DNA of 31,208 nt from a virus: positions 1 through 31,208 of the IMG/VR virus record IMGVR_UViG_3300005295_000048. One strand, written 5' to 3'. The translations under genes and the position numbers were made by a program. Below the pieces are notes generated by a model. It was given only the letters and a program-made list of their open reading frames with translations, made no database searches and was not told the DNA's origin. Positions within the stretch are counted from its first letter, which is position 1; the number at the start of each line of letters is the position of its first letter. This document shows positions 14,340 through 30,193 of the stretch, one piece after another.

Positions 14340-15032
14340 ATGTCCAGTCGCATGGACAAATTCGTCGATATTGCCGTGGACCAATTCCAAAAGGGGTGGT
14401 CCATGCTTAAACAGGCACCTCTTGCCCTTGTTTCAGTGGTCGGGCTAACAGTGTTGGGATGTTGGTTTTATTTCAGAGCGCACATAGCCCATCTGAAGGA
14501 TTTGAATGATACGCTTTCAAAAAGGGTCGATGCCCTTGAGAAGGAAAATAAGTCAACGCATGAGGAAAACGAAAAGATTCATCGGGAGAATCAGGAAATG
14601 GCCGCCAAATTGCGAACGTCTTTCAGAATGGACATTCGTAACGTGAATATCTTCACCCCATCCGGGGTGGTTACCACTAGGACTTGCTTCTTAATGGAGG
14701 TGCGCCTTTGGAATGGGGGTGCATCGAGTGTCGCCAGGAATTGGAGGCTAGAATTAGAATTAGAAGATGGATCTTTGATTGACACGCAAGGCAGTTCGAT
14801 CCCACCGCAGTTGAAATTGGATGGAAAACCAGTCGGTGACTACCCTGATTTATCTGAGTTCACGGCCCGAAATAAAGTCGATACTTTTGCGGAAGGCTGG
14901 CTCATGTTCTGCGGTCCAATCGCGCACGATCTGGCAATCAGGCGAACCAATTCTCTGGTACTGTCAGTGGAGGATGTTCACGGAAAAACCTTCAAATGCG
15001 AGCAACCGTTAAGCGGCCTCTTGTCGCCGTGA
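14340..15032 (+). CDS. membrane-anchored coiled-coil passenger protein
   Basis: The 230-residue protein has a short cytoplasmic N-terminus, one transmembrane helix (about 26-46, APLALVSVVGLTVLGCWFYF), a coiled coil (about 50-95, LSKRVDALEKENKSTHEENE) and a C-terminal beta-rich domain (CFLMEVRLWNGGASSVARNW, SLVLSVEDVHGKTF). The last part resembles domains that sit outside a membrane. It lies wholly inside the IS ends, so it moves with the element, and it is less GC-rich than the phage genes. Function unknown; possibly a host-interaction or defence-related passenger, but no motif supports that. Confidence 0.7.
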   Translation: MSSRMDKFVDIAVDQFQKGWSMLKQAPLALVSVVGLTVLGCWFYFRAHIAHLKDLNDTLSKRVDALEKENKSTHEENEKIHRENQEMAAKLRTSFRMDIRNVNIFTPSGVVTTRTCFLMEVRLWNGGASSVARNWRLELELEDGSLIDTQGSSIPPQLKLDGKPVGDYPDLSEFTARNKVDTFAEGWLMFCGPIAHDLAIRRTNSLVLSVEDVHGKTFKCEQPLSGLLSP

Positions 15033-15034
15033 TA

Positions 15035-15331
15035 TTACTTTTTAGCCTTCTTTGAAGTTGGCGGAGGTGGCGTATTAAGCATCGCCCCTAGGGCATCCTC
15101 AAACTTTAGTGGATGCAGCGTTAGCTTTTCGCGGCTTGGTTTTGTTTTTCGCTTTCGAGTTTTCACGAATCCGTTCAATGAACTCGGCCCGCAATCTTCT
15201 TGCAAGCCGATTCCCTCAAACGCATTGCTTGTAAGTGAGGCGCTTTCCGGCCGCTTGTTCAATCGCGATTTCCATCCGCTGCCCGTCTGTGATTTTCCGA
15301 TTGTTCCAACGGAATTCAACTTCGTGGGCAT
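15035..15331 (-). CDS. IS accessory frame ending in LNTPPPP tail
   Basis: The frame overlaps the transposase C-terminus and stops 2 bases from the passenger stop. Its C-terminal half (KLTLHPLKFEDALGAMLNTP, then PPPTSKKAKK) resembles short proteins encoded behind related transposases. The N-terminal part is out of frame with the transposase and may not be translated. A GTG at the VKTRKRK position may be the true start, giving about 45 residues. Role unknown. Confidence 0.45.
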   Translation of the reverse strand: MPTKLNSVGTIGKSQTGSGWKSRLNKRPESASLTSNAFEGIGLQEDCGPSSLNGFVKTRKRKTKPSREKLTLHPLKFEDALGAMLNTPPPPTSKKAKK

Positions 15332-16175
15332 ACCTTGGAAGATGTTCTCGGCTGACGTGATGCCACGCGCCCATCACCCCGCGCTTGAGCAGCGAGAAGA
15401 AACTTTCGCAGGTATTGACGTGTGAAACACTGCCGTCTGGATTCTTGCGGGCGTACTCGAAAGCAGAGTGATTTACGGCGTCATGTCGCTTGAACAGGTT
15501 TTCAAGCCCGATGTAAACGCCAGCCTGATCGGTGTTGATAACCGTGTCTTTGGCAGCGCACTCGGCGAGGCATGAGCGCAGATTCCTTTGCGTCACGCTC
15601 GGGACAACTTTAGTTCGCGCCTTTCCGTCCCGTTGAACAAGAGCAACGACCGGGGTCTTGCGCAGGTGCTTTGTTCCGTGCTCGCCCTTGCCGCCAACGA
15701 ACGTCTCATCAATTTCGACGGTGCCATTGATCAACTGGGCAAGCGCCCCTTCATTCATCGCGAAGCGAATTCGATGTGCCATGAACCAAGCGGATTTGTA
15801 CGTGATGTCCAGCATCCTATGGAGTTGGTGAGCACTCATTCCTTTCTTGGACGAGCAAAGAAGGAAGATCGCCATGAGCCACTTGCCAATCGGAATGTGC
15901 GAGTCCTCAAAGATTGTTCCGACTGTTACGGTAAATTGCTTGCGGCACGCTCCGCACTTATAAAGCCCTTTGCGAGCCGGGCGCTTGCTATCGGGCTTCG
16001 GCTGGATTGAGTAAATCGCCTTCGACTTCCCATCGTTCGCGCAGTGGGCGCAGACAGGACCGTCAGGCCAGCGAAGTGATTCCAGAAGTTCACGAGCCTT
16101 ATCGTTGTCGGAATACTCCTGCGCCAGCTTGATAAGGTTCAGGTCCGACTCAATTCCCGCTTCATTCGGTTTCAT
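15216..16175 (-). CDS. IS1595-family transposase
   Basis: The 319-residue protein begins with a zinc ribbon (CAHC at 42-45 and CGAC at 74-77, then RKQFTVTVGTIFEDSHIP). The catalytic core is of ISXO2/IS1595 type: VEIDETFVGG with Asp156, NTDQAGVY with Asp216, and HVNTCESFFSLLKRG with Asn254 and Lys264, followed by WHHVSREHLPRYAHEVEFRW. It should cut and join the element ends. On the minus strand TTGACA inside the right inverted repeat lies 17 bases from TAGCTT, a possible promoter for this gene. Length and motifs look intact. Confidence 0.92.
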   Translation of the reverse strand: MKPNEAGIESDLNLIKLAQEYSDNDKARELLESLRWPDGPVCAHCANDGKSKAIYSIQPKPDSKRPARKGLYKCGACRKQFTVTVGTIFEDSHIPIGKWLMAIFLLCSSKKGMSAHQLHRMLDITYKSAWFMAHRIRFAMNEGALAQLINGTVEIDETFVGGKGEHGTKHLRKTPVVALVQRDGKARTKVVPSVTQRNLRSCLAECAAKDTVINTDQAGVYIGLENLFKRHDAVNHSAFEYARKNPDGSVSHVNTCESFFSLLKRGVMGAWHHVSREHLPRYAHEVEFRWNNRKITDGQRMEIAIEQAAGKRLTYKQCV

Positions 16176-16223: not shown

Positions 16224-16252
16224 AAAAAGCCCGCGCAATGAAGCACGGGCTT
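16224..16252 (-). terminator. Rho-independent terminator of the minus-strand operon
   Basis: On the minus strand AAGCCCGTGC, a 6-base loop TTCATT and GCGCGGGCTT form a 10-bp stem with one G-T pair (16252-16227), ending in a run of five T. It lies 24 bases past the stop of the last minus-strand gene. The IS target duplication coincides with the T-run, so the terminator remains complete. Confidence 0.85.
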
Positions 16253-16276: not shown

Positions 16277-16528
16277 TTAAGTTGGTGTCGGCACGTTATC
16301 CGTCTGGTCATCGAGCGCCTTCGTCTTCGACGCCAGCGAGCCGATGCGAGATTCGAGTGCGTTGATGGTTGCCTGGTCCTCTGGCGATACCGTTCCAGCC
16401 GAGTCCTGCAACTCTTTGATGAGGCGCTTGAGTTCCGTCACGTCGCCCTGAATGCCGTCAACCGATGTACCGATTTCGTCGAGGAACGTGTTAACGCGCC
16501 CGGCGAATGCTTGAATTGCTTCAGCCAT
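16277..16528 (-). CDS. small coiled-coil protein, end of minus operon
   Basis: The 83-residue product is a long helix with heptad character (VNTFLDEIGTSVDGIQGDVT, ELKRLIKELQD, INALESRIGSLASKTKALDD). Such small coiled coils occur in phage structural and lysis regions and in bacterial surface operons. GAAAGAAAC precedes the ATG on the minus strand. A small GCCC-TGTT-GGGC hairpin lies at 16546-16557 upstream. It is the last gene before the terminator. Function unknown. Confidence 0.65.
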   Translation of the reverse strand: MAEAIQAFAGRVNTFLDEIGTSVDGIQGDVTELKRLIKELQDSAGTVSPEDQATINALESRIGSLASKTKALDDQTDNVPTPT

Positions 16529-16582: not shown

Positions 16583-16846
16583 CTACCCTGTCTGCGCGTC
16601 GAGCTTCTTCAGCCGGGCCGCAAGCTTGGAAACTCGGCCCTCGATTTTATCCAGCAACTTGAAGTCCGCCGCTGAAAGTTGATTCACGATGGCTGCGATG
16701 ATTCGCTGCTCAGCCTCCGCCAAGTCCTGCTTGGTCACGGCATTGCGCTGTCGTTCCTCGCGCTGGGCGGCCAGCTCGGCTGTCAGGCCAACAATCGCAT
16801 CTGCTAGCTGCTCGTTCGGCGAACCACGATCTTCTGGCTTGCTCAT
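16583..16846 (-). CDS. hypothetical 87-residue helical protein
   Basis: Starting at ATG 16846 the product reads MSKPEDRGSPNEQLADAIVG and continues as an Ala/Gln/Glu-rich coiled coil (AQREERQRNAVTKQDLAEAE, LSAADFKLLDKIEGRVSKLA). It resembles the gene at 16277 in composition but not in exact sequence. The longer frame starting at 16882 adds a basic segment and has no better start. Function unknown. Confidence 0.6.
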   Translation of the reverse strand: MSKPEDRGSPNEQLADAIVGLTAELAAQREERQRNAVTKQDLAEAEQRIIAAIVNQLSAADFKLLDKIEGRVSKLAARLKKLDAQTG

Positions 16847-16897
16847 AAACCACAGTCTGAGCCAAGTCCTCAAGGCGCGCAAGTAAGGGATTTCCCC

Positions 16898-17062
16898 CTA
16901 CCTGTGGATGGGATTACCGAAAACGACGTAGCCCAAAATCGCGATGAGTATTAGCACCACGACCCACCGACCACGCCCAAGCAATGGGGACGTGGAGTCG
17001 GGCACAAACGCGCCGATGACCAGGAGTAGCAACAGTAACCAGAATAAAATTTGGAGTATCAT
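16898..17062 (-). CDS. 54-residue protein with two membrane helices
   Basis: ATG at 17062 on the minus strand encodes a first hydrophobic helix (ILFWLLLLLLVIGAFV), a short loop (PDSTSPLLGRGR) and a second helix (WVVVLILIAILGYVVFG), ending at TAG. The two-helix hairpin could be a holin-like or other small inner-membrane protein. It occupies the gap between 16846 and 17069 exactly. No recognised family. Confidence 0.6.
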   Translation of the reverse strand: MILQILFWLLLLLLVIGAFVPDSTSPLLGRGRWVVVLILIAILGYVVFGNPIHR

Positions 17063-17068
17063 AATCGT

Positions 17069-17593
17069 TTAGAATCTGATCCGAATTCCAGCGTTGAACA
17101 GGTAGCTATTTCTGCCTGTCAGGTTGGCATCAATCGCTCCCTCTGCGAACAGTCGCAAGCCCTCCAGCTTTTTGTTCAGGCCAAGCTCGATGCCGGCGCC
17201 CGGCTGGATGCGCCATTCGTCACGTTCAAGGTTGAACGTGCCGCCAAGGAATGTGTAAGGCGACAGGTAGTTGAACGGCATCCTGGCCACCAGCCTCCCG
17301 CCGATGGCCTGCACGGCATGGCCGTTGATGTCCAAACCTTCGTGGCTGACCCTCGCGTCGATGCCCCAGTTCTTGGTGATCTGGTAGCCGACCCCGAGGA
17401 AGTAACCGTCCTCGCTTGTGTTGAAGTCCGGCGTGGTCAGCGACAATCCGGCATCGGCGTACCAGCCGGAAGGCGTGTATGGATCTGTCAACTTTGGAGC
17501 GGGCGTTTCGGCCGCTGGTTTTGGTGCGTCTGCGCTCAAGGTAACGCACGCACTGAGCAACAGACCAGCAATGATGCAAGGAATGGTTTTCAT
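17069..17593 (-). CDS. outer-membrane beta-barrel protein with lipobox
   Basis: The 174-residue protein has a signal peptide ending in a lipobox (GLLLSAC, Cys16), a Pro/Ala-rich linker and an eight-strand-like barrel: GWYADAGLSLTTPDF, GYFLGVGYQITKNWGIDARV, AIGGRLVARMPFNY, LSPYTFLGGTFNLE and RIQPGAGIELGLN. It ends NAGIRIRF, with the terminal Phe typical of barrels inserted by BamA. OmpA/OmpW-like small porin folds are the closest guess. In a phage such a protein could alter the host surface and block superinfection. It overlaps the upstream gene by 4 bases. Confidence 0.7.
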   Translation of the reverse strand: MKTIPCIIAGLLLSACVTLSADAPKPAAETPAPKLTDPYTPSGWYADAGLSLTTPDFNTSEDGYFLGVGYQITKNWGIDARVSHEGLDINGHAVQAIGGRLVARMPFNYLSPYTFLGGTFNLERDEWRIQPGAGIELGLNKKLEGLRLFAEGAIDANLTGRNSYLFNAGIRIRF

Positions 17594-17763
17594 GTTATGT
17601 CGATTGTTATCTTTTTCACGCCGCCTTTGGCAAGCAGCTTTTCAACAACCTCGCCGGCCTCTTTGGCGTCCCTCGGTACCGGCGTATAAAGCTTCCCTTC
17701 CTGATCCTTCCAGGTTGGCTCCGGAGGATTCGGCTCCTCAATGTAGACGATCTCGATTGCCAT
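17590..17763 (-). CDS. hypothetical 57-residue protein
   Basis: ATG at 17763 and a TGA that overlaps the start of the barrel gene (ATGA). The product begins MAIEIVYIEEPNPPEPTWKD, has LYTPVPRDAKEAGEVVEKLL and ends in a strand (GVKKITIDIT), a compact alpha/beta peptide. No motif. Coupling supports translation. Confidence 0.65.
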   Translation of the reverse strand: MAIEIVYIEEPNPPEPTWKDQEGKLYTPVPRDAKEAGEVVEKLLAKGGVKKITIDIT

Positions 17764-17778
17764 CTTAATAGGCGTGTT

Positions 17779-19536
17779 TCACTTCACGTACTGCGCGATG
17801 AACGATCCCGTCGAACCACCGGGAGCGACGATTGTGATGCCCCCGAAGTCGGTTGTGTAGCCGAAATATCCAGCCGTGAAAGCGTGGCCAGAGGCGTCGA
17901 AAGCAACTCCAAGTCCGGCAGAATTATTGAGCGTAGTCGAGCGCCTGCACCAGCGATAGACCGGCTGCGCGTTGCCGGACACGCTCCATCCTGACACGAA
18001 ATAGCCGCTGCCTCCAATGTTCGCGTCCGGCTGCCAGACCGAGCTGTAGACCCCGCTGAAAACAAGCGATCCCTCGGTGTCTATATTTATGCCGTATCCA
18101 GTGTCGCCCGCACTGAGTTGCTCTCCTCCCATCGTTTTCGCCCACAGGTATGTTCCGGTGGGTCCGTACCCCGCAAGGAACAGCGTCGCTCCGGTTCCGC
18201 TAGTGACGGTGCCGCCGCCGAAATTCGCCGTGCCCTTGAAGGTGCCCGTAATAACCGCGTTGCCGGTGTTCGGGTCCGTCGCGATGCCGCGACCAATGGC
18301 CACCTGGCTTGCGCTCATTGCTCGATCCCATCGGTAATCTCCGCTCGCGCCGGAGTACTTTGCGATGAAGCCGTCGTCGGTACCGGTACTCGTTCGGACG
18401 CCGCCGCCGAGGTCTGTCGCAATCGAGAAGGAGCCAGTAATCCACACGTCTCCAGTGCGGTCCAAGGCCATCGCGTAGGGTGAATCGTTGTTCGGTCCTC
18501 CCCATCTCTTGGCCCATTGGTTTACACCCGTACTCGAATACTTGGCCAGCGCGATGTCGTAGTACTGGCTGCCGTTACTCAGAAGCACGACGGCACCGCT
18601 ACTGTTGGTGCCGAAGCTCGCGTTGAAGGATTGAAAGCGGGCCGTTAAAACTATGGCGTCAGAAGCGTCCACGGAAACGCCGACAGCCAAGTCCTCCCAC
18701 GGCCCGCCAAATCTTTGAGACCATTGATGAACACCCGAAGGCGAATACTTGGCGAGAAAGATGTCAGTGTTTCCAGCGTTGGTCAGAAGCGTGCCGCCAA
18801 GATTCACTGAGCCTTGAAAGTGCCCAGCCACGACGATGTTCCGCTGGCTGTCAATCGCGACCCCACTGGCTGAATCGTTTCCGTTGCTCCCGAGCTGCTT
18901 GACCCACGCCAGATTTCCCTGCTGCCCATACCTCGCAAGGAAGGCGTCGGAGGCGGACACCGAAGCCGTGCGCGGCCCGTTGCCGAAGTTGATTGTGCCT
19001 TGGAACGAGCCAGCCGTCACAGATTCCCCCGATGCCCTATCCACCACCACGCCGTTAGCACTGGCGTTGTCGAAGAACGTGCTACCGAGCGCCGGAGTAA
19101 CCCAGCGAAGCGTTCCTGGAGGCTGGCCCTGCGTCGTGATGACTCTGAAGAACGCCGTCGTGAACCCGTATGGCGCAGGATTGGTGACGGAGTGTTGCGT
19201 AGTGCTGGGTCCGAAGTTCGCCCACGGCGAAAGGACATCCGGCCGGGATTGAGTCTGAAATGGCGGCGTGCCATTGATCCACGTCAGCACGATCTTGTTG
19301 CCCGATTGCACCTTCGCTGAAACAACGGCGAAATCCGTCGGGTTATAACTTGGAGCCACCGCCGTCGGGGCGGCTGTCTTTGGAGCCACCTTCGGCTCAT
19401 ACTTCAAGCCGGAAGGCAACGGAGGAGGCGGAACCTTCGTCGCAGATTGCCTCGCCGCAGCAGATCGCTTCGGCGTTTGTTTGCAGCCCGGCATCACTAT
19501 CATCAGGAGCGCCAGAAACCAGAGTAACTTTTTCAT
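17779..19536 (-). CDS. large lipoprotein with SBBP-like beta-propeller repeats
   Basis: The 585-residue protein has a signal peptide with lipobox MPGC (Cys18), a Pro/Ala linker, a beta domain (IVLTWINGTPPFQTQSRPDV, TAFFRVI) and then at least seven repeats of about 55-65 residues. These follow the pattern GV-x-D-x-x-G-x-x-V-x-G-x-F-x-G-x-x-NFG followed by D-x-F-[LI]-A-x-Y and W-x-x-x-x-GG, typical of SBBP/beta-propeller lipoproteins. It should be a surface-exposed or periplasmic anchored propeller that binds a ligand or partner. Such proteins are common in Verrucomicrobiota-like genomes but unusual inside a phage operon. It overlaps the holin-like gene by 4 bases. Confidence 0.8.
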   Translation of the reverse strand: MKKLLWFLALLMIVMPGCKQTPKRSAAARQSATKVPPPPLPSGLKYEPKVAPKTAAPTAVAPSYNPTDFAVVSAKVQSGNKIVLTWINGTPPFQTQSRPDVLSPWANFGPSTTQHSVTNPAPYGFTTAFFRVITTQGQPPGTLRWVTPALGSTFFDNASANGVVVDRASGESVTAGSFQGTINFGNGPRTASVSASDAFLARYGQQGNLAWVKQLGSNGNDSASGVAIDSQRNIVVAGHFQGSVNLGGTLLTNAGNTDIFLAKYSPSGVHQWSQRFGGPWEDLAVGVSVDASDAIVLTARFQSFNASFGTNSSGAVVLLSNGSQYYDIALAKYSSTGVNQWAKRWGGPNNDSPYAMALDRTGDVWITGSFSIATDLGGGVRTSTGTDDGFIAKYSGASGDYRWDRAMSASQVAIGRGIATDPNTGNAVITGTFKGTANFGGGTVTSGTGATLFLAGYGPTGTYLWAKTMGGEQLSAGDTGYGINIDTEGSLVFSGVYSSVWQPDANIGGSGYFVSGWSVSGNAQPVYRWCRRSTTLNNSAGLGVAFDASGHAFTAGYFGYTTDFGGITIVAPGGSTGSFIAQYVK

Positions 19537-19847
19537 GTTGTCATCTTTCTGTTGTCCACCACTTTTTGCTTGGCCTGATGCTCCTTATACTTCCGTTCGG
19601 CCTCTTCGGCGAGTCGTTGATAGGATTCAATATCTGGATTCTGGTCAGCCAGTGTGCGGGCCGACACCATACCGATCATGAGCTGCTCCCCCATCTGGGA
19701 GTTGACCAGCGTGTGAGTATCTTGAATGATCTTGTCGCGTTTCGCCTCGCGCTTTCTGCTGACCAGATAGTTGCACACCGCGATCACCATCGACTGGGCC
19801 GCTGCCGAGATGCCAGCAATTAAGGCGACTTGAACAGCGTCGGTCAT
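19533..19847 (-). CDS. holin-like single-helix membrane protein
   Basis: From ATG 19847 the 104-residue product begins MTDAVQVALIAGISAAAQSM and continues VIAVCNYLVSRKREAKRDKI. This is one N-terminal membrane helix followed by a strongly charged coiled-coil tail (YQRLAEEAERKYKEHQAKQK). That layout occurs in some phage holins and spanin-like proteins, but no endolysin is visible nearby. The upstream extension to 19901 overlaps the neighbour and was rejected. Confidence 0.6.
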   Translation of the reverse strand: MTDAVQVALIAGISAAAQSMVIAVCNYLVSRKREAKRDKIIQDTHTLVNSQMGEQLMIGMVSARTLADQNPDIESYQRLAEEAERKYKEHQAKQKVVDNRKMTT

Positions 19848-19849
19848 TC

Positions 19850-21049
19850 TCAAAAAGGCACCGCAGTCCCGGTCAACCCACTCGCCGCCGTCACGGCCCA
19901 TCCCGGCTGAAGCAGTACGGTCATCGTGCCAGTGAACGTAGTCGCTGGGACAATGGTCGTGCCCGACCTGTTCTTCTGAGTGACAGCCACGGCAGTTCCG
20001 TTCAAGTACACCACTTGGTTTATGACCTGATTGTTGGTGTATCCGCTTCCTCCAACTGCGTTGGTTGCCAAGGTGGAGTAGCTTGCGAAGCCGTTGGTGC
20101 CAACATAATACCCAGGCGTGACAGCCTTGACTATCGCTGCATTTCCAAGCGTCATTGTATCGTTTTCGCCGACAAAAGCACCTGAGCCGACCGCAGTGGC
20201 ATTGCTGAGCCCTGCGATTGCGGTTGCTGCATAACCAATAAAGGTGCAGTTGGTAAGTTGTGGAATACCTAAAGCGACTTGGTACCCAACGCCCACGTTA
20301 TTCTGAGCATCCTCAACATCCCGTAAGCTCTCGTATCCAACCCCGGTATTACGCGCTGTAGCAGTGGTGATAAACCCCATACTTTTTGAGCCTATTGCGG
20401 TGTCTCTTGTAGCACTGGCATTTTGGTCCAGCGTGCCGTATCCCACTGCGGTTACATCATTCGCCGTCGTAATGATGTCCATCGCATCTCCACCTACGCA
20501 GACGTTCTGTCCTCCGGTGGTAAATATGACCATCGCCTCGTAACCGATAGCCACATTAAGGCTTCGGAATTGGTTGGCATTCAAAGCTCGTGTTCCAAGA
20601 ACCGAGTTATTTTCTCCATCCCGTAGGTTTTGCGCAGCCTGGAATCCAACCACTGAGTTGTGTGCTCCTCCATCAATACGCTCCAATGTGTTATGGCCAA
20701 TCCCAACATTTTCAATGGCGGTCACACTGCCATTCGTCATCGACTCATTACCAATCGACACGTTGTTGTAGGCATTCGCAGTCGTGTGCATCGCCCTGTA
20801 GCCGACAGCGATGTTGTTACTCTTTGTGTTCGCCTTGAGCGCCGATGGGCCTATCCCGATGTTGCTGCGGCCAATTGAAATGTTGAACACCGTTCCAGTT
20901 ACACCGAGGGTTGAAGTCGATCTCTGTTTCAGATTGAGGGTATCGTTTGTCCACGGGATCGCATTGAACATGTCGGTGAACGACGGATTCGCGGCGCTCA
21001 GGCTGAGCACTGACGAAAGTAAAAAGAGAAAGGTCAGGATTCGTTTCAT
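19850..21049 (-). CDS. secreted beta-roll fibre-like adhesin
   Basis: ATG 21049 overlaps the upstream stop (ATGA) and yields a clean Sec signal peptide (MKRILTFLFLLSSVLSLSAA). Residues about 60-300 are a run of short repeats with a G-x-x-[AS] turn: NIGIGPSALKA, NIAVGYRAM, NVSIGNESM, NVGIGHNTL, NSVVGFQAA, NSVLGTRAL, NVAIGYEAM and others, each about 14-25 residues. This is the YadA-head/left-handed beta-roll pattern also found in phage tail fibres, usually trimeric. A C-terminal beta-sandwich-like domain follows (VVYLNGTAVAVTQK, TFTGTMTVLLQPGW). A signal peptide on a fibre-like protein is unusual and implies export rather than virion assembly. Confidence 0.75.
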   Translation of the reverse strand: MKRILTFLFLLSSVLSLSAANPSFTDMFNAIPWTNDTLNLKQRSTSTLGVTGTVFNISIGRSNIGIGPSALKANTKSNNIAVGYRAMHTTANAYNNVSIGNESMTNGSVTAIENVGIGHNTLERIDGGAHNSVVGFQAAQNLRDGENNSVLGTRALNANQFRSLNVAIGYEAMVIFTTGGQNVCVGGDAMDIITTANDVTAVGYGTLDQNASATRDTAIGSKSMGFITTATARNTGVGYESLRDVEDAQNNVGVGYQVALGIPQLTNCTFIGYAATAIAGLSNATAVGSGAFVGENDTMTLGNAAIVKAVTPGYYVGTNGFASYSTLATNAVGGSGYTNNQVINQVVYLNGTAVAVTQKNRSGTTIVPATTFTGTMTVLLQPGWAVTAASGLTGTAVPF

Positions 21050-21270
21050 ACCCATTGTTGGCTTGGTACGTCCCATTGGAAAAGACTTCCACCACCGGTA
21101 GGGAACGATACCGCTGGTTTGGTTGGGTCTGTTGGAGTCGGCTGATCTTGGAAGACCTGCTGCGCCACAGAGCCAGAAGCCCCTCCGCCGCCCGCGCCTC
21201 CAAGATCCAGGCTCGGATAATCTTGGCGTGGCCTCGGTATCGGGTCCGGGTCGTAGTTTAATTCAGGCAT
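21046..21270 (-). CDS. MPELNY small protein, copy 2
   Basis: The 74-residue product starts MPELNYDPDPIPRPRQDYPS, has a Gly/Ala-rich centre (GGAGGGGASGS) and ends SLFQWDVPSQQWV. The neighbour at 21278 shares the MPELNY start, the RPRP-like segment and a W-rich end. The two are diverged tandem paralogues. No function known; the W-x-x-x-x-x-W-V end suggests a small binding motif. Confidence 0.6.
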   Translation of the reverse strand: MPELNYDPDPIPRPRQDYPSLDLGGAGGGGASGSVAQQVFQDQPTPTDPTKPAVSFPTGGGSLFQWDVPSQQWV

Positions 21271-21277
21271 AAGATGT

Positions 21278-21481
21278 TCAGATTTGAATCCAGGAGCTGC
21301 CGTTGGCCGGCCAGACCCACCTCGTCAGACCAACTGTGTTGAGGTGGAAATTTGTCACTCCAGTATTGGCGGGCGGGATCGTCGGGTTCACTGGTCCGTC
21401 ACTCAGAATACTTAGGACCAGCCTGGCATAGCTCCGAATCGGAGTCGGCCTTGGCCGAGCGAAGTAGTTCAGCTCTGGCAT
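21278..21481 (-). CDS. MPELNY small protein, copy 1
   Basis: The 67-residue product starts MPELNYFARPRPTPIRSYAR and ends TRWVWPANGSSWIQI. Start and end match the next gene (MPELNY; W-x(n)-W), while the middle differs. It sits between the gene at 21490 and the second copy. Function unknown. Confidence 0.6.
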   Translation of the reverse strand: MPELNYFARPRPTPIRSYARLVLSILSDGPVNPTIPPANTGVTNFHLNTVGLTRWVWPANGSSWIQI

Positions 21482-21489
21482 GTCGCACG

Positions 21490-22035
21490 CTACCCAGTGG
21501 GCTTCGCGTCCGTCAATGCCTTTTCTTTATCGTTAACGTTGGGCGCTGGCGACACCGCCACCACCACTGGCTGCCCGGCCGGGAAGGCGATCCGCATGTC
21601 ATTACTGCCGCCCTTGCTGCCGGCCTCCTTTGCTGCCTCCAGATGCGATTGCCCCACCTCGATGATCTGCTTGTTGAACCGGAGCTGTGTGGCCCGAAGC
21701 TCAGCGATGACGTTCGCGTTGACCTTCGGATTCTCTGTGAGCAGCCGGTCAATGTCCTCCTGAATCGCCGCCACCGCCCTGTCCGCGTTGTCCCCCGCAC
21801 AGTGCAGACGCCCATGCCCAATCATCTTCACGCCCCACTTCTCAATCTCTATGCCAGCCTCGGCCAGCAACCTGGCCTTGACTCGCATGGTCCGCGTGTT
21901 GAACTGCTGACGGATGCGGGCGATCTCCTTTTCCTCGGTGGCCTTCCGGGCCTTGATGAGGGCCTTCTTGTCGATCTCGATCTCGGCGGGCGGCTGCTCG
22001 ATGATCTCCACTGGTAGTTCTTTTTTGTCGCTCAT
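21490..22035 (-). CDS. hypothetical 181-residue protein
   Basis: The N-terminal 70 residues are charged and helical (IEIDKKALIKARKATEEKEI, ARIRQQFNTRTMRVKARLLA). The middle has KWGVKMIGHGRLHCAGDNAD, the C-terminal part VIAELRATQLRFNKQIIEVG, and the tail is Pro/Val-rich. It does not resemble a small terminase or scaffold closely enough to name one. It follows the 465-residue gene by a 3-base gap. Function unknown. Confidence 0.65.
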   Translation of the reverse strand: MSDKKELPVEIIEQPPAEIEIDKKALIKARKATEEKEIARIRQQFNTRTMRVKARLLAEAGIEIEKWGVKMIGHGRLHCAGDNADRAVAAIQEDIDRLLTENPKVNANVIAELRATQLRFNKQIIEVGQSHLEAAKEAGSKGGSNDMRIAFPAGQPVVVAVSPAPNVNDKEKALTDAKPTG

Positions 22036-24005: not shown

Positions 24006-24373
24006 CCCTCGCCCAAAAACTCGACCGTCTCCCGCCCTGCATCTGTCGGCTCTTAGCCAAGAGCAACGGCGAGCTGATGACCGACGCCGAACTGATGAGA
24101 CGAATGCGCTGCGGCAAGGATAAGCTCCGACGGATTGTCGAATCCAGAACGTGGGACGGGATCGCGGTGCAGGACGTTGACGATTTTCTTAAAGCCTGCG
24201 GCCTCACTTGGTCCACGCAGCGTCGCCAGATCTGGGGCTTGAAGAGGGCCGTCGAAAAGGGCCTTGAGGGGATTCGCCGCATGAAGCATCTCAAGAAACC
24301 AGTGGCCCAGAAGGCGAGCCGCGTCCTTACCTTACTCAAACGCACGGAAGAAATTCTGAAGAACTCGCAATGA
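24002..24373 (+). CDS. hypothetical basic helical protein (123 residues)
   Basis: GTG start overlaps the methylase stop. The product has MTDAELMRRMRCGKDKLRRI, VQDVDDFLKACGL and a Lys/Arg-rich C-terminus (GLEGIRRMKHLKKPVAQKAS). The CGKDKLRRIVESRTWDGI segment looks like a helix-turn-helix. It lies directly before the recombinase with a 4-base overlap, so it may be an accessory DNA-binding factor such as an excisionase. That role is inferred from position only. Confidence 0.55.
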   Translation: MTLAQKLDRLPPCICRLLAKSNGELMTDAELMRRMRCGKDKLRRIVESRTWDGIAVQDVDDFLKACGLTWSTQRRQIWGLKRAVEKGLEGIRRMKHLKKPVAQKASRVLTLLKRTEEILKNSQ

Positions 24374-25377
24374 ACGAACCCAAGCTCATCGCCGACCACA
24401 CTGAGATCCTCCCGGAACTCGCCCCGGCGCCACTCAAGAAGGCGGCAACGCTGTCGAATCTCTGGGGCACCTTCGTCGAATCGAAAAACCCAGCGCCCAA
24501 CACGACGCACAATCTACGGTTCATCGGTAAGAGATTCCTTGGCTACTTCCGCGAGCAGGAACTCACGGTTCAGTCCATGGTGAATTGGTGCAAGTACGTC
24601 CGCAGCATCAAGAATAACTCCGGCAAACCCATCTCGGCCTCTCGTGTCCATGACATCCAATGTAAAGTCCGGAGCTTCCTCAAGTTCATCCAAAAGCTCG
24701 GCTTCATTAAGCATCCACTCTGGGAGTTTGTTGAGATACCACGGATGCCGGACCCAAAGATGCCAGAGATCGTTTCCGATGAGGAATATCAGCGCCTCAA
24801 GGATTTCCTGAAGGACGCCGAGCGCTGGCAGTGGGTACTGTGGATGTGCATCCTTGGCTACCGCACGGGCATGAATCTTCAGGACTGTGCTCACCTGCGC
24901 TGGGAGAACGTCTTCCTCAACGACACCTCCGAGTCCTACATCGACATCCCGCGCATCAAGCTGGAACGCTTCGGCGAGAAAGCTGTGTGCCGCATCCCCA
25001 TTGTTCCCGGCTCCGACGTTCACGAGTGGCTGCTGAAGCTGAGGAAGGTGGAGAACTACAAGCGCGCCGACGGTCTTAACTACGTGCATCAAGACTGCCC
25101 AGGTCTCTACTCTTGGGGACAGCCGTGCGGCCAGCGCATGGGGCGCAGCATCGTTAGTCTCTTCCGGCAGTGCGGTATCAACAACGGCAAAAGCTTCGCC
25201 TCGTTCCGAAGAACCTTCGTCAGCAACTTGGTCAACTCCGGCATGGACTACGCGCTCGTCTGCAAGATCACGGGGCACACGAATATCAAGATGCTGCTGC
25301 GCTACCTCCGCCCAGATCGCAGGGCGCTCCAGGATGGAGTGATGAAGGCTCAGCAGTACGCGGAGGAAAGAACATGA
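24370..25377 (+). CDS. divergent tyrosine recombinase/integrase
   Basis: The 335-residue protein has a SAM-like N-terminal core-binding domain (LWGTFVESKNPAPNTTHNLR, about 31-50) and a catalytic domain. Lys197 lies in IKLERFGEKAVCRIPI. FASFRRTFVSNLVNSGMDYA carries Arg280, followed by KITGHTNIKMLLRYLRP with His303 and the nucleophile Tyr312. The first catalytic arginine is expected in TG-x-R-LxD, but the sequence is TGMNLQD, with Asn169 in its place; Arg165 lies one helical turn earlier. The box II His is Ala277. It is either inactive, uses Arg165, or belongs to a subfamily with shifted residues. No att site was found. Confidence 0.8.
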   Translation: MNEPKLIADHTEILPELAPAPLKKAATLSNLWGTFVESKNPAPNTTHNLRFIGKRFLGYFREQELTVQSMVNWCKYVRSIKNNSGKPISASRVHDIQCKVRSFLKFIQKLGFIKHPLWEFVEIPRMPDPKMPEIVSDEEYQRLKDFLKDAERWQWVLWMCILGYRTGMNLQDCAHLRWENVFLNDTSESYIDIPRIKLERFGEKAVCRIPIVPGSDVHEWLLKLRKVENYKRADGLNYVHQDCPGLYSWGQPCGQRMGRSIVSLFRQCGINNGKSFASFRRTFVSNLVNSGMDYALVCKITGHTNIKMLLRYLRPDRRALQDGVMKAQQYAEERT

Positions 25378-25826
25378 AGACTCACGAATCCAAAAAAGAA
25401 CTCTCTCCCGAGGAAGACGTGAAGAACGTCATGGCCCAAATCAGGGCCATGGAAAGCGGACTGCCAAAACCTGCCGGCGGAGAAGATCCTACAACATCGG
25501 CAACACCCATCCCTGCCGAGGCGGAGGCCCCTTCGCCAGTTGTTTCTCCGCCGGCAACCCAGACCCCACCCTCTGCGCCAAAGGCACCAGACTGGCTCCA
25601 CAGCGTCGTCGAGGTCACATCGAGAGACTCCAAGCACTTTGGCCAACTCTTCCGTCTCGGCGACATCCAGGCCGGCAAGGCCCACGGCTACATTCTCAAG
25701 GAACACGGCGGGCGGGAGTTTATCACCGTGGCCGCTGACCACATCACCACCATCGGGAAGCCGAAGATCAAGGCTGGGAGATGTTGCAGTGACCGGTGGG
25801 TGTCTGAACACAGGGAGGTAAAATGA
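25374..25826 (+). CDS. hypothetical protein with Pro-rich linker (150 residues)
   Basis: ATG 25374 overlaps the recombinase stop. An acidic N-terminal helix (MKTHESKKELSPEEDVKNVM) is followed by a Pro/Ala linker (about 40-80) and a small beta domain (HFGQLFRLGDIQAGKAHGYI, REFITVAADHITTIGKPKIK). No catalytic motif. It begins a run of three small coupled genes of unknown function. Confidence 0.6.
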   Translation: MKTHESKKELSPEEDVKNVMAQIRAMESGLPKPAGGEDPTTSATPIPAEAEAPSPVVSPPATQTPPSAPKAPDWLHSVVEVTSRDSKHFGQLFRLGDIQAGKAHGYILKEHGGREFITVAADHITTIGKPKIKAGRCCSDRWVSEHREVK

Positions 25827-26026
25827 ATACTTTCAAGGCCGCCGATCCGGATAAGATCAAGTTCATCCTCAGCCTGACAATGACGCTCGAAGAGTGGCGT
25901 ATGATAAGGGATCAAATCAAGACAAGCGTATGGCCAGCAGGGAGAGTGCGTGAGGAAATCTTATCAATGATCGAGCAGGCCGAGAAAACGTACTATCCAC
26001 AGTACCAACCACCGAAAGAAGAATGA
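25823..26026 (+). CDS. hypothetical 67-residue protein
   Basis: Coupled by ATGA on both sides. The product contains FILSLTMTLEEWRMIRDQIK and an Ile/Met helix (REEILSMIEQAEKTY). It resembles short phage proteins with a single helix-loop-helix; no function can be assigned. Confidence 0.65.
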   Translation: MNTFKAADPDKIKFILSLTMTLEEWRMIRDQIKTSVWPAGRVREEILSMIEQAEKTYYPQYQPPKEE

Positions 26027-26259
26027 GCAACCGAATCGTAGACCTCAACGGCGCTCCTGCCAAACCTGAGCCGCCAAACGTTCCTGAGATGATTGAAACC
26101 GCCCGCGCCCGATGGAAGCTCGGTGAAAAACACAAGGGCTTTGAGACGCTGTGCGATGCCATGCAGCTTCTGGCGAAGGGCGTGGGGAGGAATATCCTGG
26201 ATGCGCAGAAACTGGATGCGGAGCTGAAGGAGTTAAAGCAGAAGGTTACACCGAGATGA
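26023..26259 (+). CDS. hypothetical 78-residue helical protein
   Basis: Starts MSNRIVDLNGAPAKPEPPNV, then helices ETARARWKLGEKHKGFETLC and ILDAQKLDAELKELKQKV. No recognised motif. Coupled to the preceding gene and to the nucleotidyltransferase that follows. Confidence 0.6.
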   Translation: MSNRIVDLNGAPAKPEPPNVPEMIETARARWKLGEKHKGFETLCDAMQLLAKGVGRNILDAQKLDAELKELKQKVTPR

Positions 26260-26735
26260 TTATAGAAAAGATCTACGACTCCGCCAGCCATCTGGCGAGG
26301 GATTGGCCTGTGTTTGAAGACAAGCGCGCGATTTGTTTTTGCAGCGGCGTATTTGACACGCTTCACAGGGGTCACGTCGAGTTGCTGCGCAGAGCGTTTA
26401 ACCAACCTGGATACATTGTTGTGGGCATCAACAGCGACGCATCCGTGCGGAGGATAAGGGGCGAAGATCGGCCCATCGTGAATCAGGCAGACAGGGCGTT
26501 CATGCTGGCCGCGTTGCAGCTCGTCCACTCCGTATTTATCTTTAATGAGGACACTGTGGTTGAGAGCCTTAAAATCCTGCGGCCAAGAACCTGGGTAAAA
26601 GGTGGCGACAGAAATCTCGAAACCCTGGACCAAGAAGAGCGCAGAACCGCCGAGGAGATCGGAACGAAGATCGTCTTCATCCCGAGAGTCGGCGACTACT
26701 CCACGACGGAGATAGTGAGGAGGATGAAGGGATGA
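26256..26735 (+). CDS. HldE/RfaE-type nucleotidyltransferase (ADP-heptose synthase domain)
   Basis: The 159-residue protein matches the C-terminal domain of HldE: GVFDTLHRGHVELLRRA (31-47) with the HxGH nucleotide-binding motif, VVGINSDASVRRIRG, RPIVNQADRAFMLAAL, VHSVFIFNEDT, LRPRTWVKGGD and DYSTTEIVRRM. It would transfer AMP (or CMP) to a sugar phosphate such as heptose-1-phosphate to give an activated sugar. The kinase domain of full HldE is absent, so it would rely on a host kinase or a different substrate. It opens the glycan cassette with the GT9-like and other transferases downstream. Confidence 0.85.
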   Translation: MIIEKIYDSASHLARDWPVFEDKRAICFCSGVFDTLHRGHVELLRRAFNQPGYIVVGINSDASVRRIRGEDRPIVNQADRAFMLAALQLVHSVFIFNEDTVVESLKILRPRTWVKGGDRNLETLDQEERRTAEEIGTKIVFIPRVGDYSTTEIVRRMKG

Positions 26736-26785
26736 AAGAGAGCCTTGACACTTACGACACGCGGGCGGCACTGTCGCCACAATGA
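26732..26785 (+). CDS. 17-codon leader frame before the AP2-HNH gene
   Basis: ATG 26732 overlaps the HldE-type stop and encodes MKESLDTYDTRAALSPQ, ending in a TGA that overlaps the ATG of the endonuclease. It may be a short coupling peptide or a chance frame. TTGACA lies inside it, so it may instead hold a promoter. No similarity to the start of the gene at 27501 was seen. Confidence 0.3.
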   Translation: MKESLDTYDTRAALSPQ

Positions 26786-27504
26786 TCAACCTTCCCCTAA
26801 GAAATGGCGGGTTCACCTCAATCGACAATGAAGATCTTACGCTTGTTAAACCATTCAAGTGGCGCAGGCAGCCGAAGCCAAGCGGCAAGAGTTACGCCAT
26901 TACACGCCTAGTCGCGAACGGCAAGGCAACAACACTCAGGATGCACAGACTGATAATGCACGCCGCCAAAAACGCCGTAGTCGATCATATTAACCACGAC
27001 GGACTCGACAACCGGAAGGCGAACCTTCGCATCGTCAGTGTTGCCAAGAACAACTACAATCGCCGGAAGCTGAAACTCAAAACGTCAAAGTTCAAAGGGG
27101 TACATCAAACGGAGCTTGGTTATTGGAAGGCCGGGCTGCGGCTCAACTACAAGCAGATTCACCTCGGCACATTCGATAGTCAAGAACTGGCGGCAGCCGC
27201 TTACAACCACAAGGCTAGACAAGTATTCGGGCAGCACGCCTGCCTCAATGCTGTTCCAAAGAACCTCGAAGCTAAAGCGGTCGCCATCTCCGAAAACCCG
27301 AAGAAGAAGCGCGACCCAAAGTCGAAGTACTTGGGCGTATACTTGGCCAAGGTTGGCAAGCGTCGATGGTTCGTCAGGGCGCGCACCTCGGAGGGGAAGC
27401 TGTTTTATGTAGGCTCTTACTTCACTGAGCTGGAGGCAGCAAAAGCGTACAATGCAGTTACACTGGCAATTCACGGAGCTTCAGCAAAGGTCAACAAGCT
27501 TTGA
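26782..27504 (+). CDS. HNH endonuclease with two AP2 domains
   Basis: The 240-residue protein starts with an HNH domain: RMHRLIMHAAKNAVVDHINH and DGLDNRKANLRIVSVAKNNY. Two AP2-type DNA-binding domains follow: KFKGVHQTELGYWKAGLRLN with HLGTFDSQELAAAAYNHKAR, then KYLGVYLAKVGKRRWFVRAR with YVGSYFTELEAAKAYNAVTL. AP2-HNH proteins are homing endonucleases widespread in phages. The gene fits exactly between HldE-type and GT9-like genes, and its TGA overlaps the TTG start of the latter. It probably landed at that start codon. Confidence 0.9.
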   Translation: MINLPLRNGGFTSIDNEDLTLVKPFKWRRQPKPSGKSYAITRLVANGKATTLRMHRLIMHAAKNAVVDHINHDGLDNRKANLRIVSVAKNNYNRRKLKLKTSKFKGVHQTELGYWKAGLRLNYKQIHLGTFDSQELAAAAYNHKARQVFGQHACLNAVPKNLEAKAVAISENPKKKRDPKSKYLGVYLAKVGKRRWFVRARTSEGKLFYVGSYFTELEAAKAYNAVTLAIHGASAKVNKL

Positions 27505-28265
27505 ACACTTTTCGCCATGCTGGGGATCGTGGAGATCTCCTCGCGGGATTACCCGTGATTCGATATTTCGGGGGCGGTGTGCTGTACATAGAGGCGGCGC
27601 CGTACACGCGGGAATTTCTCACGCCGGACAAGTGGTGTGGCATCGATCTCCTGCTCAAGCAGCAGCCCTACATCGTCGATGTTCTCCCGTGGGAGAACCA
27701 GAGAGTAAGCTACGTGCTCAACGACTTTCGGGCTCACATGTTCCGCGCCCTGCGAAAGCTTCACGTCAATCAGAACACCGACCCTGCGCTCCTGCGGAAA
27801 TCGCTCGTCGATTGGCAGCTCGAAGCCCACGGCGTTCCGTACACTGAGAAGGACAGGGCGTGGTTGAGCGTGGAGCCGAATCCCGTGGCGCCCGTGGTCA
27901 TCAACCGCACTGGCCCAGGCCGCGCGCCGCACCACGTTTACCACAATCCGAACTTTCCGTGGCACCGCGTCTGGCAGAAGTACCGCGAGAAGGCGGTGTT
28001 CATCGGGACACCGGAGGAGCACAGGGTTTTTTCGGCGACGTGCGGAGACCTGAGATATTTTCCGACAAAGGATCTGCATGAGGCTGCCCGCGTGATCGCT
28101 GGAGCGGAGTTGTTTGTTGGGAACCAGAGCGTTTGTTTTTGGATCGCGGCCGCGATGCACAAGCCGCATGTGCTGGAAGTATGGGCCTCCGGCCCGAATT
28201 CATGCGTTTTTTACCCCGGCGCGGTTCACGGGTGGAACATCGACGTTGAACTGCCGAACCTATGA
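27501..28265 (+). CDS. GT9-like glycosyltransferase
   Basis: The 254-residue protein resembles ADP-heptose:LPS heptosyltransferases (GT9) in the FRHAGDRGDLLAGLPVIRYF start (4-23), AVFIGTPEEHRVF (165-177) and ELFVGNQSVCFWIAAAMHKP (203-222), which bind the nucleotide sugar. At about 250 residues it is shorter than classic two-domain GT9 enzymes. The start is TTG, within the stop of the AP2-HNH gene; the native ATG was probably lost when the endonuclease inserted. Paired with the HldE-type gene it suggests heptose-like sugar transfer, target unknown. Confidence 0.7.
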   Translation: MNTFRHAGDRGDLLAGLPVIRYFGGGVLYIEAAPYTREFLTPDKWCGIDLLLKQQPYIVDVLPWENQRVSYVLNDFRAHMFRALRKLHVNQNTDPALLRKSLVDWQLEAHGVPYTEKDRAWLSVEPNPVAPVVINRTGPGRAPHHVYHNPNFPWHRVWQKYREKAVFIGTPEEHRVFSATCGDLRYFPTKDLHEAARVIAGAELFVGNQSVCFWIAAAMHKPHVLEVWASGPNSCVFYPGAVHGWNIDVELPNL

Positions 28266-28600
28266 GCGAATACAAAGAAGTCCCAGTCGAAGCGGCGAAG
28301 CAAATCGCCGAAGCTTACAGCAAGGACATCGTTGTCATCAACTGCTACAGCCGTGAGCACAATCTCCTTCACTCAACAACCTATGGCGTCTCTCCGGCGG
28401 ACAAAGTATCAGCCGCGAAAGCTGGCGAGATTATCGCCAAGGCGCTCGGTTCAGATGTGAGCCGCCTAACCGAGTACGAGGACTTCCGAAAGGATCTCAA
28501 CGCTGGAAAGCAGCGGGCTATGGAGGAGGCGATCAAGAAGCACCTTCCTGAAATGGACCCCGAGATGGCGCATGACTTTAGAAAGGCGCTTGGGCTATGA
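28262..28600 (+). CDS. hypothetical 112-residue protein
   Basis: The first half (VPVEAAKQIAEAYSKDIVVI, REHNLLHSTTYGVSPADKVS) resembles a short domain common in phage proteins, with a conserved HxTTYG segment followed by an Ala-rich helix. The second half is a charged helical tail. Function unknown. Coupled to both neighbours by 4-base overlaps. Confidence 0.65.
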   Translation: MSEYKEVPVEAAKQIAEAYSKDIVVINCYSREHNLLHSTTYGVSPADKVSAAKAGEIIAKALGSDVSRLTEYEDFRKDLNAGKQRAMEEAIKKHLPEMDPEMAHDFRKALGL

Positions 28601-29337
28601 GTTCAATCGCCATGTGCTGTAACGCGTACCAGGACGCCGCTGCCCTGCGCGGACTGCTGGAGACTTCCGCTCCTTACTTTGATCAACTCTACGTGATCCA
28701 CTCTGGCCCCGGCGGCGCTTACTCCACTGACGGAACGATTGAGCTGTGCCAAGAGTTCGGCGTGAAGCTCGACTTCGATGACATCCAGCGAGGCTACGGG
28801 GCGATCAGGACGAAGCTCCTCCACAAGTGCGAATGCGACTGGGCCTTCATCCTCGATGCTGATGAACGCTTCTTCCCACTCCTGCCCGTCATCACCTGCT
28901 CTGGCGACGAGAAGTACCCGGACGTTCCGAACCCAAAGCTCACTGTGGAGAAGAAGGCTGACGTGATCAACCAGGGCGCCCACGTCAAGAACCTAATCAA
29001 CAACCGAGAGACGATGGCGCTGAGGTCCACGCGCCGCCACTGGTTTGATTTCGCGATGACGAGGCCGTCCCAGAACTTCCACAAGATCCATGATCACCAG
29101 CTTCGCATAGTTCGGAACCATCCGATGATAGCCTACGAAACTGACAGGGTGATGCACGAGAAACTTACCGACGCGCGCACCGGAAAAGATCCGAAGTACG
29201 TGGCTCAGGACGAGCAGGGCGGCCCGTTCCATGATCATTTCCATCTTCACTTCCGCCGCACCCAACCCGGCCACAAAGAGTTTAACGAGATCAACTACGC
29301 CCGCCTCTCACGCGGGGAGAAAATGCTGACACGATGA
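28597..29337 (+). CDS. GT2-like glycosyltransferase
   Basis: The 246-residue protein begins MSSIAMCCNAYQDAAALRGL and contains LYVIHSGPGGAYSTDGTIEL, GYGAIRTKLLHKCECDWAFI and LDADERFFP (86-94). DADE is the DxD metal and sugar-nucleotide site of GT2-type enzymes. The C-terminal part includes HDHQLRIVRNHPMIAYETDR and DHFHLHFRRTQ. It likely transfers a sugar from a nucleotide donor; donor and acceptor unknown. Confidence 0.75.
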   Translation: MSSIAMCCNAYQDAAALRGLLETSAPYFDQLYVIHSGPGGAYSTDGTIELCQEFGVKLDFDDIQRGYGAIRTKLLHKCECDWAFILDADERFFPLLPVITCSGDEKYPDVPNPKLTVEKKADVINQGAHVKNLINNRETMALRSTRRHWFDFAMTRPSQNFHKIHDHQLRIVRNHPMIAYETDRVMHEKLTDARTGKDPKYVAQDEQGGPFHDHFHLHFRRTQPGHKEFNEINYARLSRGEKMLTR

Positions 29338-29528
29338 AAAGAACAATGGAAGACTACCGTGTGGTATCCGATGGAGAGGTCTTTCGCGTGCAGCTTCGGG
29401 AGCGCATCCTCTTCTTCAATTCTTGGTTCGATGTCACAAATAACTTGAAGACTCGCGAGGAAGCCGAGAAGTGGGCCGATCACTTTGCCAAGGTGTTCGG
29501 CACAAAGGGAAAGTTCCGACCCGTATGA
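29334..29528 (+). CDS. hypothetical 64-residue protein
   Basis: Starts MKRTMEDYRVVSDGEVFRVQ and reads as a beta sheet followed by a helix (TREEAEKWADHFAKVFGTKG). No motif. It is coupled on both sides inside the glycan cassette, which suggests but does not show a related role. Confidence 0.65.
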   Translation: MKRTMEDYRVVSDGEVFRVQLRERILFFNSWFDVTNNLKTREEAEKWADHFAKVFGTKGKFRPV

Positions 29529-30193
29529 GAACCCTCCTCTTCACCGGCTACAATCAAGCCTACGCCCCGCTGGCTGAACTCACCACTCCGCTCATGCAGG
29601 CTTACGCCAACAAGCATGGGTTCGAGTTCATGTGGTACCCGGATTCCTTCCTGAAAATTCCGAACTCGATTTACTGGGTTGGTGTCGCTGGCGCCCTGCA
29701 TGGCCTTAAGGAATGTGATCGCGTCATCTATTTGGACGTGGACCAGATGATCACGAACCCGGAGTTCGAGGTTGGCCTGCCCGGATTCGGCTTCCACGTC
29801 TCACAGGACTGGGGCGCTGACGCCGTAGAGCCCTGGCATTTCTCCATGTGCGGATTCGTGGCCCATCGCGATTGCGTCCCGCTCTTCGAGGAGTGCCTTG
29901 CGATGGAGCCGGAGTGGAGGGACAAGCCCTTTGCAGAACAAGGGCCGATGAGGGACGTGATCCGCAGAAAGACCGAAGGGCTGAAGCTTGTCGATAGAAA
30001 ACCCGGCGAGCCAGACGGCGCTTTCATCAACATCCATCCACGACGGAAGTTCAACGCAGTGCCGGACGAAGTTTGTCCCGGCCAGGTGCCCGAGCCGTGG
30101 GCTGCCGGCGATTTCGCCTGTCACCTTACAATGTTGCCCATTGAGAAACGCATCGAGCTGTTCCACGAGATTAAGAAACAGGCTGGGATATGA
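29525..30193 (+). CDS. DxD-type nucleotide-sugar transferase
   Basis: From ATG 29525 the 222-residue protein reads MRTLLFTGYNQAYAPLAELT, YWVGVAGALHGLKECDRVIY and LDVDQMITNPEF with the DxD site (71-73). The C-terminal half has EQGPMRDVIRRKT, DGAFINIHPRRKFNAVPDEV and ACHLTMLPIEKRIELF. The layout fits GT34- or GT8-like galactosyl or glycosyl transferases. The longer frame from 29471 is rejected because it overlaps the neighbour. Substrate unknown. Confidence 0.75.
   Translation: MRTLLFTGYNQAYAPLAELTTPLMQAYANKHGFEFMWYPDSFLKIPNSIYWVGVAGALHGLKECDRVIYLDVDQMITNPEFEVGLPGFGFHVSQDWGADAVEPWHFSMCGFVAHRDCVPLFEECLAMEPEWRDKPFAEQGPMRDVIRRKTEGLKLVDRKPGEPDGAFINIHPRRKFNAVPDEVCPGQVPEPWAAGDFACHLTMLPIEKRIELFHEIKKQAGI

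Follow-up and report, generated by a model that had tools for sequence, protein, structure and literature searches.

The window, a linear fragment of 31,208 bases that makes up a complete IMG/VR entry (IMGVR_UViG_3300005295_000048), carries phage replication genes on its left (AAA ATPase, exonuclease VIII, replication initiator, and DnaB) and integrase, methyltransferase, and glycan genes on its right. A sister record, IMGVR_UViG_2162886007_000175, is identical wherever compared and extends 5.6 kb beyond the right end of the window with further glycan, methyltransferase, and radical-SAM-like genes. No capsid genes were recognized by eye in this extension, and the structural module of the window phage is thus unseen so far; the AAA ATPase, tried as a lineage marker, returned no relatives. 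A gene at 14340-15032 (plus strand) encodes a transmembrane (TM) segment, a coiled coil, and a further domain, with a weak match to Rz-like spanins. The tyrosine integrase gene (24370-25377, plus strand; phrog_1, 1.2e-26) indicates that the phage may be temperate.

Organization of the gene run

Between these genes, a run on the minus strand extends from approximately 21481 down to 16277 (Table 1), farther on both sides than the interval 17069-21049 in which an earlier note, made from the DNA sequence, had described an operon of exported and lipidated proteins. Two short proteins beginning MPELNY are followed by a fiber, a membrane protein of a family that we named LVNS in this analysis, a propeller, a 57-aa protein, a beta-barrel, a 54-aa membrane protein, and two coiled-coil proteins. 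The contiguity and coupling proposed earlier were borne out by ATGA 4-nt overlaps at three junctions, namely stub/fiber (21046-21049), LVNS/propeller (19533-19536), and 57-aa gene/barrel (17590-17593). Two or more small membrane proteins had also been expected; inside 17069-21049, LVNS is the only clear one, and the second, the 54-aa protein, lies just outside. No promoters were identified in a scan of the run, and we infer from its neighbors that the operon is late.

Table 1. Minus-strand gene run and adjoining features (window positions)
Feature	Position	Strand	Remarks
181-aa protein, upstream	21490-22035	-	same strand; candidate kit neighbor only
67-aa MPELNY protein	21278-21481	-	second stub-like gene copy; W-rich C terminus TRWVWPANGSSWIQI; begins MPELNY like next gene
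74-aa "stub" directly before fiber	21046-21270	-	no export signal; C terminus DPTKPAVSFPTGGGSLFQWDVPSQQWV
Fiber-like YadA-type beta-roll, Sec signal	19850-21049	-	true start 21049, MKRILTFLFLL...
LVNS protein	19533-19847	-	one N-terminal TM helix, basic stretch, HTLVNSxMxxQL ... EHxxKQxxVD
Propeller lipoprotein, MPGC lipobox	17779-19536	-	FN3/Ig-like region at N terminus, then SBBP beta-propeller
57-aa soluble protein, coupled to barrel	17590-17763	-	no TM
Lipobox outer-membrane beta-barrel	17069-17593	-	BAM-type C-terminal NAGIRIRF
54-aa two-helix membrane protein	16898-17062	-	L088 homologue
Coiled-coil protein, 99 aa (or 87 aa from 16846)	16583-16882	-	no relative found
83-aa coiled-coil protein	16277-16528	-	last gene of run; phage homologues
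Terminator-like hairpin AAGCCCGTGCTTCATTGCGCGGGCTTTTT	16224-16252	-	read by eye; not flagged by automated scan

The predicted Sec and lipoprotein signals confirmed that the run encodes exported proteins. The fiber-like beta-roll has a type I Sec signal, MKRILTFLFLLSSVLSLSA, at its coupled start, followed by a mature sequence ANPSF... and YadA-like repeats; its predicted processed N terminus is ANPSFTDMFNAIPW... (ANPSF... or AANPSF...). The fold matches phage tail spike families (phrog_4636, 3.8e-20; phrog_6002, 1.9e-19), these matches being repeat based, and the Sec signal sets the protein apart from virion fibers of tailed phages, which normally lack one. The premise that virion fibers normally have no signal peptide appears fair, given that all 12 annotated tail or fiber proteins of named phages (eight records matching the window fiber) scored below our signal threshold; a signal-bearing fiber found no match among named phages.

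The two lipoproteins were also as described earlier. The propeller has a lipobox, MPGC, and an SBBP domain (PF06739, 2.5e-9), with CylK as its best solved match (PDB 7FH6, E 1e-28). The barrel has a type II signal (LLSAC) and an OMP_b-brl domain (PF13505, E = 5e-9, above the curated cutoff), and its C terminus, NAGIRIRF, fits the BAM beta-signal (zeta-x-G-x-x-phi-x-phi), making an outer-membrane site likely by established rules. The residue after the lipobox cysteine is K in the propeller (MPGC-K) and V in the barrel (LLSAC-V), so that both lack the Asp at +2 and are predicted to be outer-membrane directed, under a rule that applies to E. coli only. Such an outer-membrane-directed lipobox, found in both, is the one expected of Llp/Cor-type superinfection-exclusion proteins. 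Compared with Lom/Ail-type proteins, the barrel has the outer-membrane beta-barrel domain and a lipobox in place of a type I Sec signal; PF13505 was its sole family at E <= 0.01, and it did not fall into the Lom/Ail family.

Phage relatives of the run

A pattern based on HTLVNSxMxxQL identified the same short membrane protein, in some cases as partial copies, in 20 other phage records, and the window protein shares the N-terminal TM helix, this motif, and H..KQ..VD. Basic residues after the helix place its C terminus in the cytoplasm. LVNS (window gene and L087-L149) thus appears as a widespread family of phage membrane proteins; it has no entry in Pfam or PHROGs and no match in named phages. 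A profile search that recovered all of its positive controls (9/9 phage records) gave no LVNS match in the 396 Acidobacteriota and 398 Pseudomonadota genomes sampled (794 in total).

Several LVNS phages have counterparts of further window genes as well: a propeller in G020 (28% over 382 aa), the fiber C-terminal domain together with the 54-aa protein in G003, and the 83-aa protein in G018. The last 61 aa of the fiber are 41% identical to a signal-bearing 1510-aa protein (L136/G003). The 54-aa protein matches its L088 homologue at 41% over 53 aa (E 3e-6), with a similar protein at 6611-6775 of G020, and the 83-aa protein has homologues in L104/G018 (33% over 79 aa) and L171 (43% over 79 aa, E 7.5e-15). 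A TerL gene could be recognized in G020, G010, and L141, records in which signal-bearing fiber genes are also present. Given LVNS in phages only, the relatives of other window genes in LVNS phages, and TerL, the region is phage DNA as judged from these comparisons. The possibility that would have undone the earlier reading, host chromosome flanking a phage, was ruled out by the phage-only occurrence of LVNS, a stub junction shared with a phage (L177, below), and the identical second contig, in which the region sits within phage genes. Database searches found no relatives of the 67-aa MPELNY, 57-aa, and 99-aa proteins; an MPELNY pattern search returned the sister contig alone, the remaining matches being unrelated, and a direct search of viral contigs for relatives of the 585-aa, 408-aa, and 174-aa window proteins returned only the identical sister contig. 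The G020 propeller gene (L110, 3744-5817) seems to be split by a frameshift, and its upstream piece starts MDINRRKFIGSSIGFGALL, a twin-arginine-like signal.

Export signals in a capsid-defined lineage

The search proposed with the original description was made, and it showed that gene sets of this kind occur repeatedly in other phages. Signal peptides were called with a heuristic of our own rather than SignalP, calibrated only by its rate of approximately 1% upstream of the capsid gene; it missed several obvious signals, and the counts are therefore probably low. In LVNS phages, signals were present in 17/46 proteins of at least 150 aa encoded within 6 kb upstream of LVNS on the same strand, versus 11/277 elsewhere (p = 1.6e-9). 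G020 has five signal-bearing genes nearly in a row, of which the heuristic overlooked one (264 aa).

To keep the signal trait itself from guiding the choice of phages, these were then sampled by the putative capsid protein of G020 and G010, which was assigned by position and size and has no match in PHROGs, PDB, or named phages. This yielded 44 loci, mostly in records of 55 to 58 kb, of which 39 were usable. Among the larger proteins, signals occurred in 44 of the 114 with genes after the capsid gene and in 2 of the 211 with genes before it, with a p value (8e-21) that is a guide only, since related phages share genes and the proteins are not independent. The low rate before the capsid gene, obtained with the same heuristic, indicates that the window signals exceed chance.

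Short stub proteins with the motif CDPxxLLxxAKCxxCxPxG, some with a W-rich tail, are encoded between the capsid gene and the fiber, and none of 68 has a signal. In some phages, the stub domain instead forms the N terminus of a larger fiber or lectin that lacks a signal. A LamG lectin, for example, is separate and signal bearing in L096, L143, and L184 and is fused to the stub without a signal, at the same locus, in L173, L174, and L175. G020 also encodes a signal-bearing right-handed beta-helix protein, and small lipoproteins and proteins with one or two TM segments cluster around LVNS in many phages.

The window stub lacks the CDP motif, and the capsid gene of its phage is unseen; the C terminus of the stub is 48% identical over 44 aa (E 6.5e-6) to the 89-aa stub of L143/G010 and 62 to 70% identical over 23 to 24 aa to those of L181 and L177. 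In L177, which belongs to the separate, capsid-defined lineage and whose contig has the putative capsid gene, a stub ending GGGSLQQWDVASASWV shares an ATGA overlap with a signal-bearing fiber, and the DNA across this junction differs little from that of the window (CAATGGGACGTA...ATGGGTATGAAA), which indicates that the window operon belongs to the arrangement of stub plus signal-bearing fiber.

Other features recur beside this arrangement. Genes like those of glycosyltransferases, methyltransferases, cytidylyltransferases, and radical-SAM enzymes are clustered in the window (25823-30738, plus strand) and in L006 (1-6800), and similar glycan clusters lie 5' of the portal-like gene in further members of the lineage, G010, G018, and G020 among them. 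An IS1595-type transposase gene (15216-16175, minus strand) has no inverted repeats of at least 14 nt in its vicinity. In the capsid-defined lineage, one phage (L189, L216 = G826) contains a 49% identical copy of the gene, which suggests that it may be a recurrent phage passenger and not a chance insertion. Host assignment through this transposase was dropped, its best matches being only 55% identical and scattered over many phyla; from sequence style, a Verrucomicrobiota host is suspected.

Discussion

Export of the window proteins in a diderm host is close to certain, as predicted from their signals. It is scarcely credible that the signals are artifacts of wrongly chosen start codons, or that the region is host DNA. 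Although the signals were predicted only heuristically, for 34 of 53 signal-bearing genes in the capsid-defined lineage, the start codon coincides with a 4- or 1-nt overlap with the preceding gene, which argues that the starts are real, and the second contig sets the region inside phage genes. In addition, one fiber family varies in its hydrophobic core while keeping the sequence after it, AQPAPPIxRxPLTTN (similarly QPVLRSPLTTN in G018; predicted processed N terminus QPAPPILR...), a pattern expected of selection on an export signal. Fibers of 991 to 1810 aa (L181, L182, L184, L188, L197, L200, and L201) have a conserved 65-aa stretch, MTIPDKYAFWRWP..., in frame before the hydrophobic segment; since this stretch is kept ahead of the core, the hydrophobic segment of the AQPAPPIxRxPLTTN family may be a membrane or signal anchor, with part of the protein in the cytoplasm, and not a signal that is cleaved off.

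Export signals on fiber-, lectin-, and barrel-like late proteins, as seen in this soil phage and many uncultivated relatives, are unusual and suggest either action at the envelope or addition to the virus outside the cytoplasm. We favor, with a probability slightly below one-half (about 0.47), a model in which the distal part of a tailed-phage late operon encodes an exported envelope kit acting on the infected cell. The nonexported stub would be translated first, its stop codon overlapping the start of a fiber sent out by Sec, and the small membrane protein, the lipid-anchored propeller, and the lipid-anchored barrel would follow. Fiber, propeller, and barrel would end up in or outside the outer membrane, a placement predicted for the lipoproteins by K or V, and not D, after the lipobox cysteine. 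There, they could occupy the glycans or proteins that serve the phage itself as receptors, or alter them, which would limit progeny readsorption and superinfection and ease release, much as T5 Llp acts from the periplasmic side; for the barrel, lambda Lom is the counterpart. Such a kit would probably limit readsorption or aid release, and surface display, put forward in the earlier note as possibly serving superinfection exclusion, adhesion, or phage spread, is a plausible candidate function. Envelope action is favored because two of the three exported window proteins are lipid anchored, one of them a barrel; because relatives add lectins and a beta-helix; and because some relatives have a fiber-like tail-side gene without a signal (627 aa in G824, 482 aa in G825) that could serve the virion, so that the exported set may be additional. 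However, the exported proteins occupy the usual position of fiber genes and share domain types with stub-fused versions, which would fit virion parts as well, and in G822 nearly all large fiber-like proteins bear signals, leaving few other receptor-binding candidates.

These last points raise the alternative that the signal-bearing proteins are the real receptor-binding fibers, which after export would fold either in the periplasm or at the outer membrane, docking on the stub of the finished virion at or after lysis. Translational coupling of the stub to the fiber behind it, the architecture uniting stub and fiber or lectin in one signal-less polypeptide, the conserved post-signal sequence, and the shortage of other fiber candidates in G822 are all consistent with this. 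Nevertheless, we consider it rather unlikely, since several of these genomes have the signal-less tail-side gene and the lipid-anchored propeller and barrel of the window would stay tied to the envelope; moreover, we know of no tailed phage that assembles its fibers in that way. Two-compartment assembly as a trait of the lineage, with fibers split into a cytoplasmic virion stub and a Sec-exported part attached outside, is likewise doubtful.

The remaining explanations would place the proteins in the envelope for other purposes. Captured host genes for an adhesin, a lipoprotein, and a barrel might change the surface of a lysogen, as would suit the tyrosine integrase, the abundance of SBBP propellers among bacteria (one Acidobacteriota genome has 38 matches to SBBP), and the precedent of lambda Lom, an outer-membrane protein linked to altered lysogens (PMC3342100). 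This is improbable, given that the genes share one directon with the stub and LVNS rather than standing as isolated cargo, that the absence of LVNS from the sampled bacterial genomes makes prophage carriage rare in the sampled phyla, and that capsid-defined relatives keep the arrangement across many genomes. Still less can be said for proteins that mainly break or clear envelope and extracellular polysaccharide, as beta-helix depolymerases and spanin-like lipoproteins would. The small lipoproteins and TM proteins around LVNS and the beta-helix protein of G020 point that way, but the window has a separate Rz-like spanin candidate; propeller, YadA-type fiber, and LamG are binding folds; and the predicted cytoplasmic C terminus of LVNS is unlike a spanin, making this very unlikely.

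A widespread soil lineage without a named relative carries export signals on its most variable binding proteins, beside signal-less versions with the same domains. Either these phages remodel the surface of the dying host cell on an undescribed scale, or they finish their virions outside the cytoplasm, and both readings affect the annotation of fiber genes in environmental phages. Assembly of tailed phages is taken to be a wholly cytoplasmic process. For binding proteins of the lectin type, one survey has read the lack of a signal peptide as support for a phage origin (PMC6199706). Single cases of exported phage proteins are already known; in the open-access literature searched, we found no description of a lineage with systematic export signals on genes in fiber position.

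Comparison with known systems sets the window apart in several respects. Its fiber is 29 to 36% identical in the repeat region to the YadA-repeat fibers of the marine phages Roseobacter CRP-1, Pelagibacter HTVC111P, and Methylophilales Venkman, which, unlike the window fiber, have no signal peptide at their N termini. Among named phages, a propeller match was found only in Leptospira phage LE1 (SBBP type, 27.5% identity over 62%), where the neighboring genes differ, and CylK, a biosynthetic enzyme, resembles the window propeller in repeat fold only. Lambda Lom, an Ail/OmpX-like protein encoded near tail-fiber genes, is likewise a phage-encoded, exported outer-membrane beta-barrel beside fiber-type genes; its fiber neighbor, Stf, is not known to have a signal. 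Unlike Lom, the window barrel has a lipobox and sits in a coupled run with an exported fiber and a lipoprotein propeller. T5 Llp is a periplasmic lipoprotein that blocks the receptor, and Llp/Cor-type proteins are phage lipoproteins that act, as the window lipoproteins would, in the envelope of the infected cell (PMC9586334). Llp, however, is small and such proteins act early; of the two window lipoproteins, one is a 585-aa propeller and the other a barrel.
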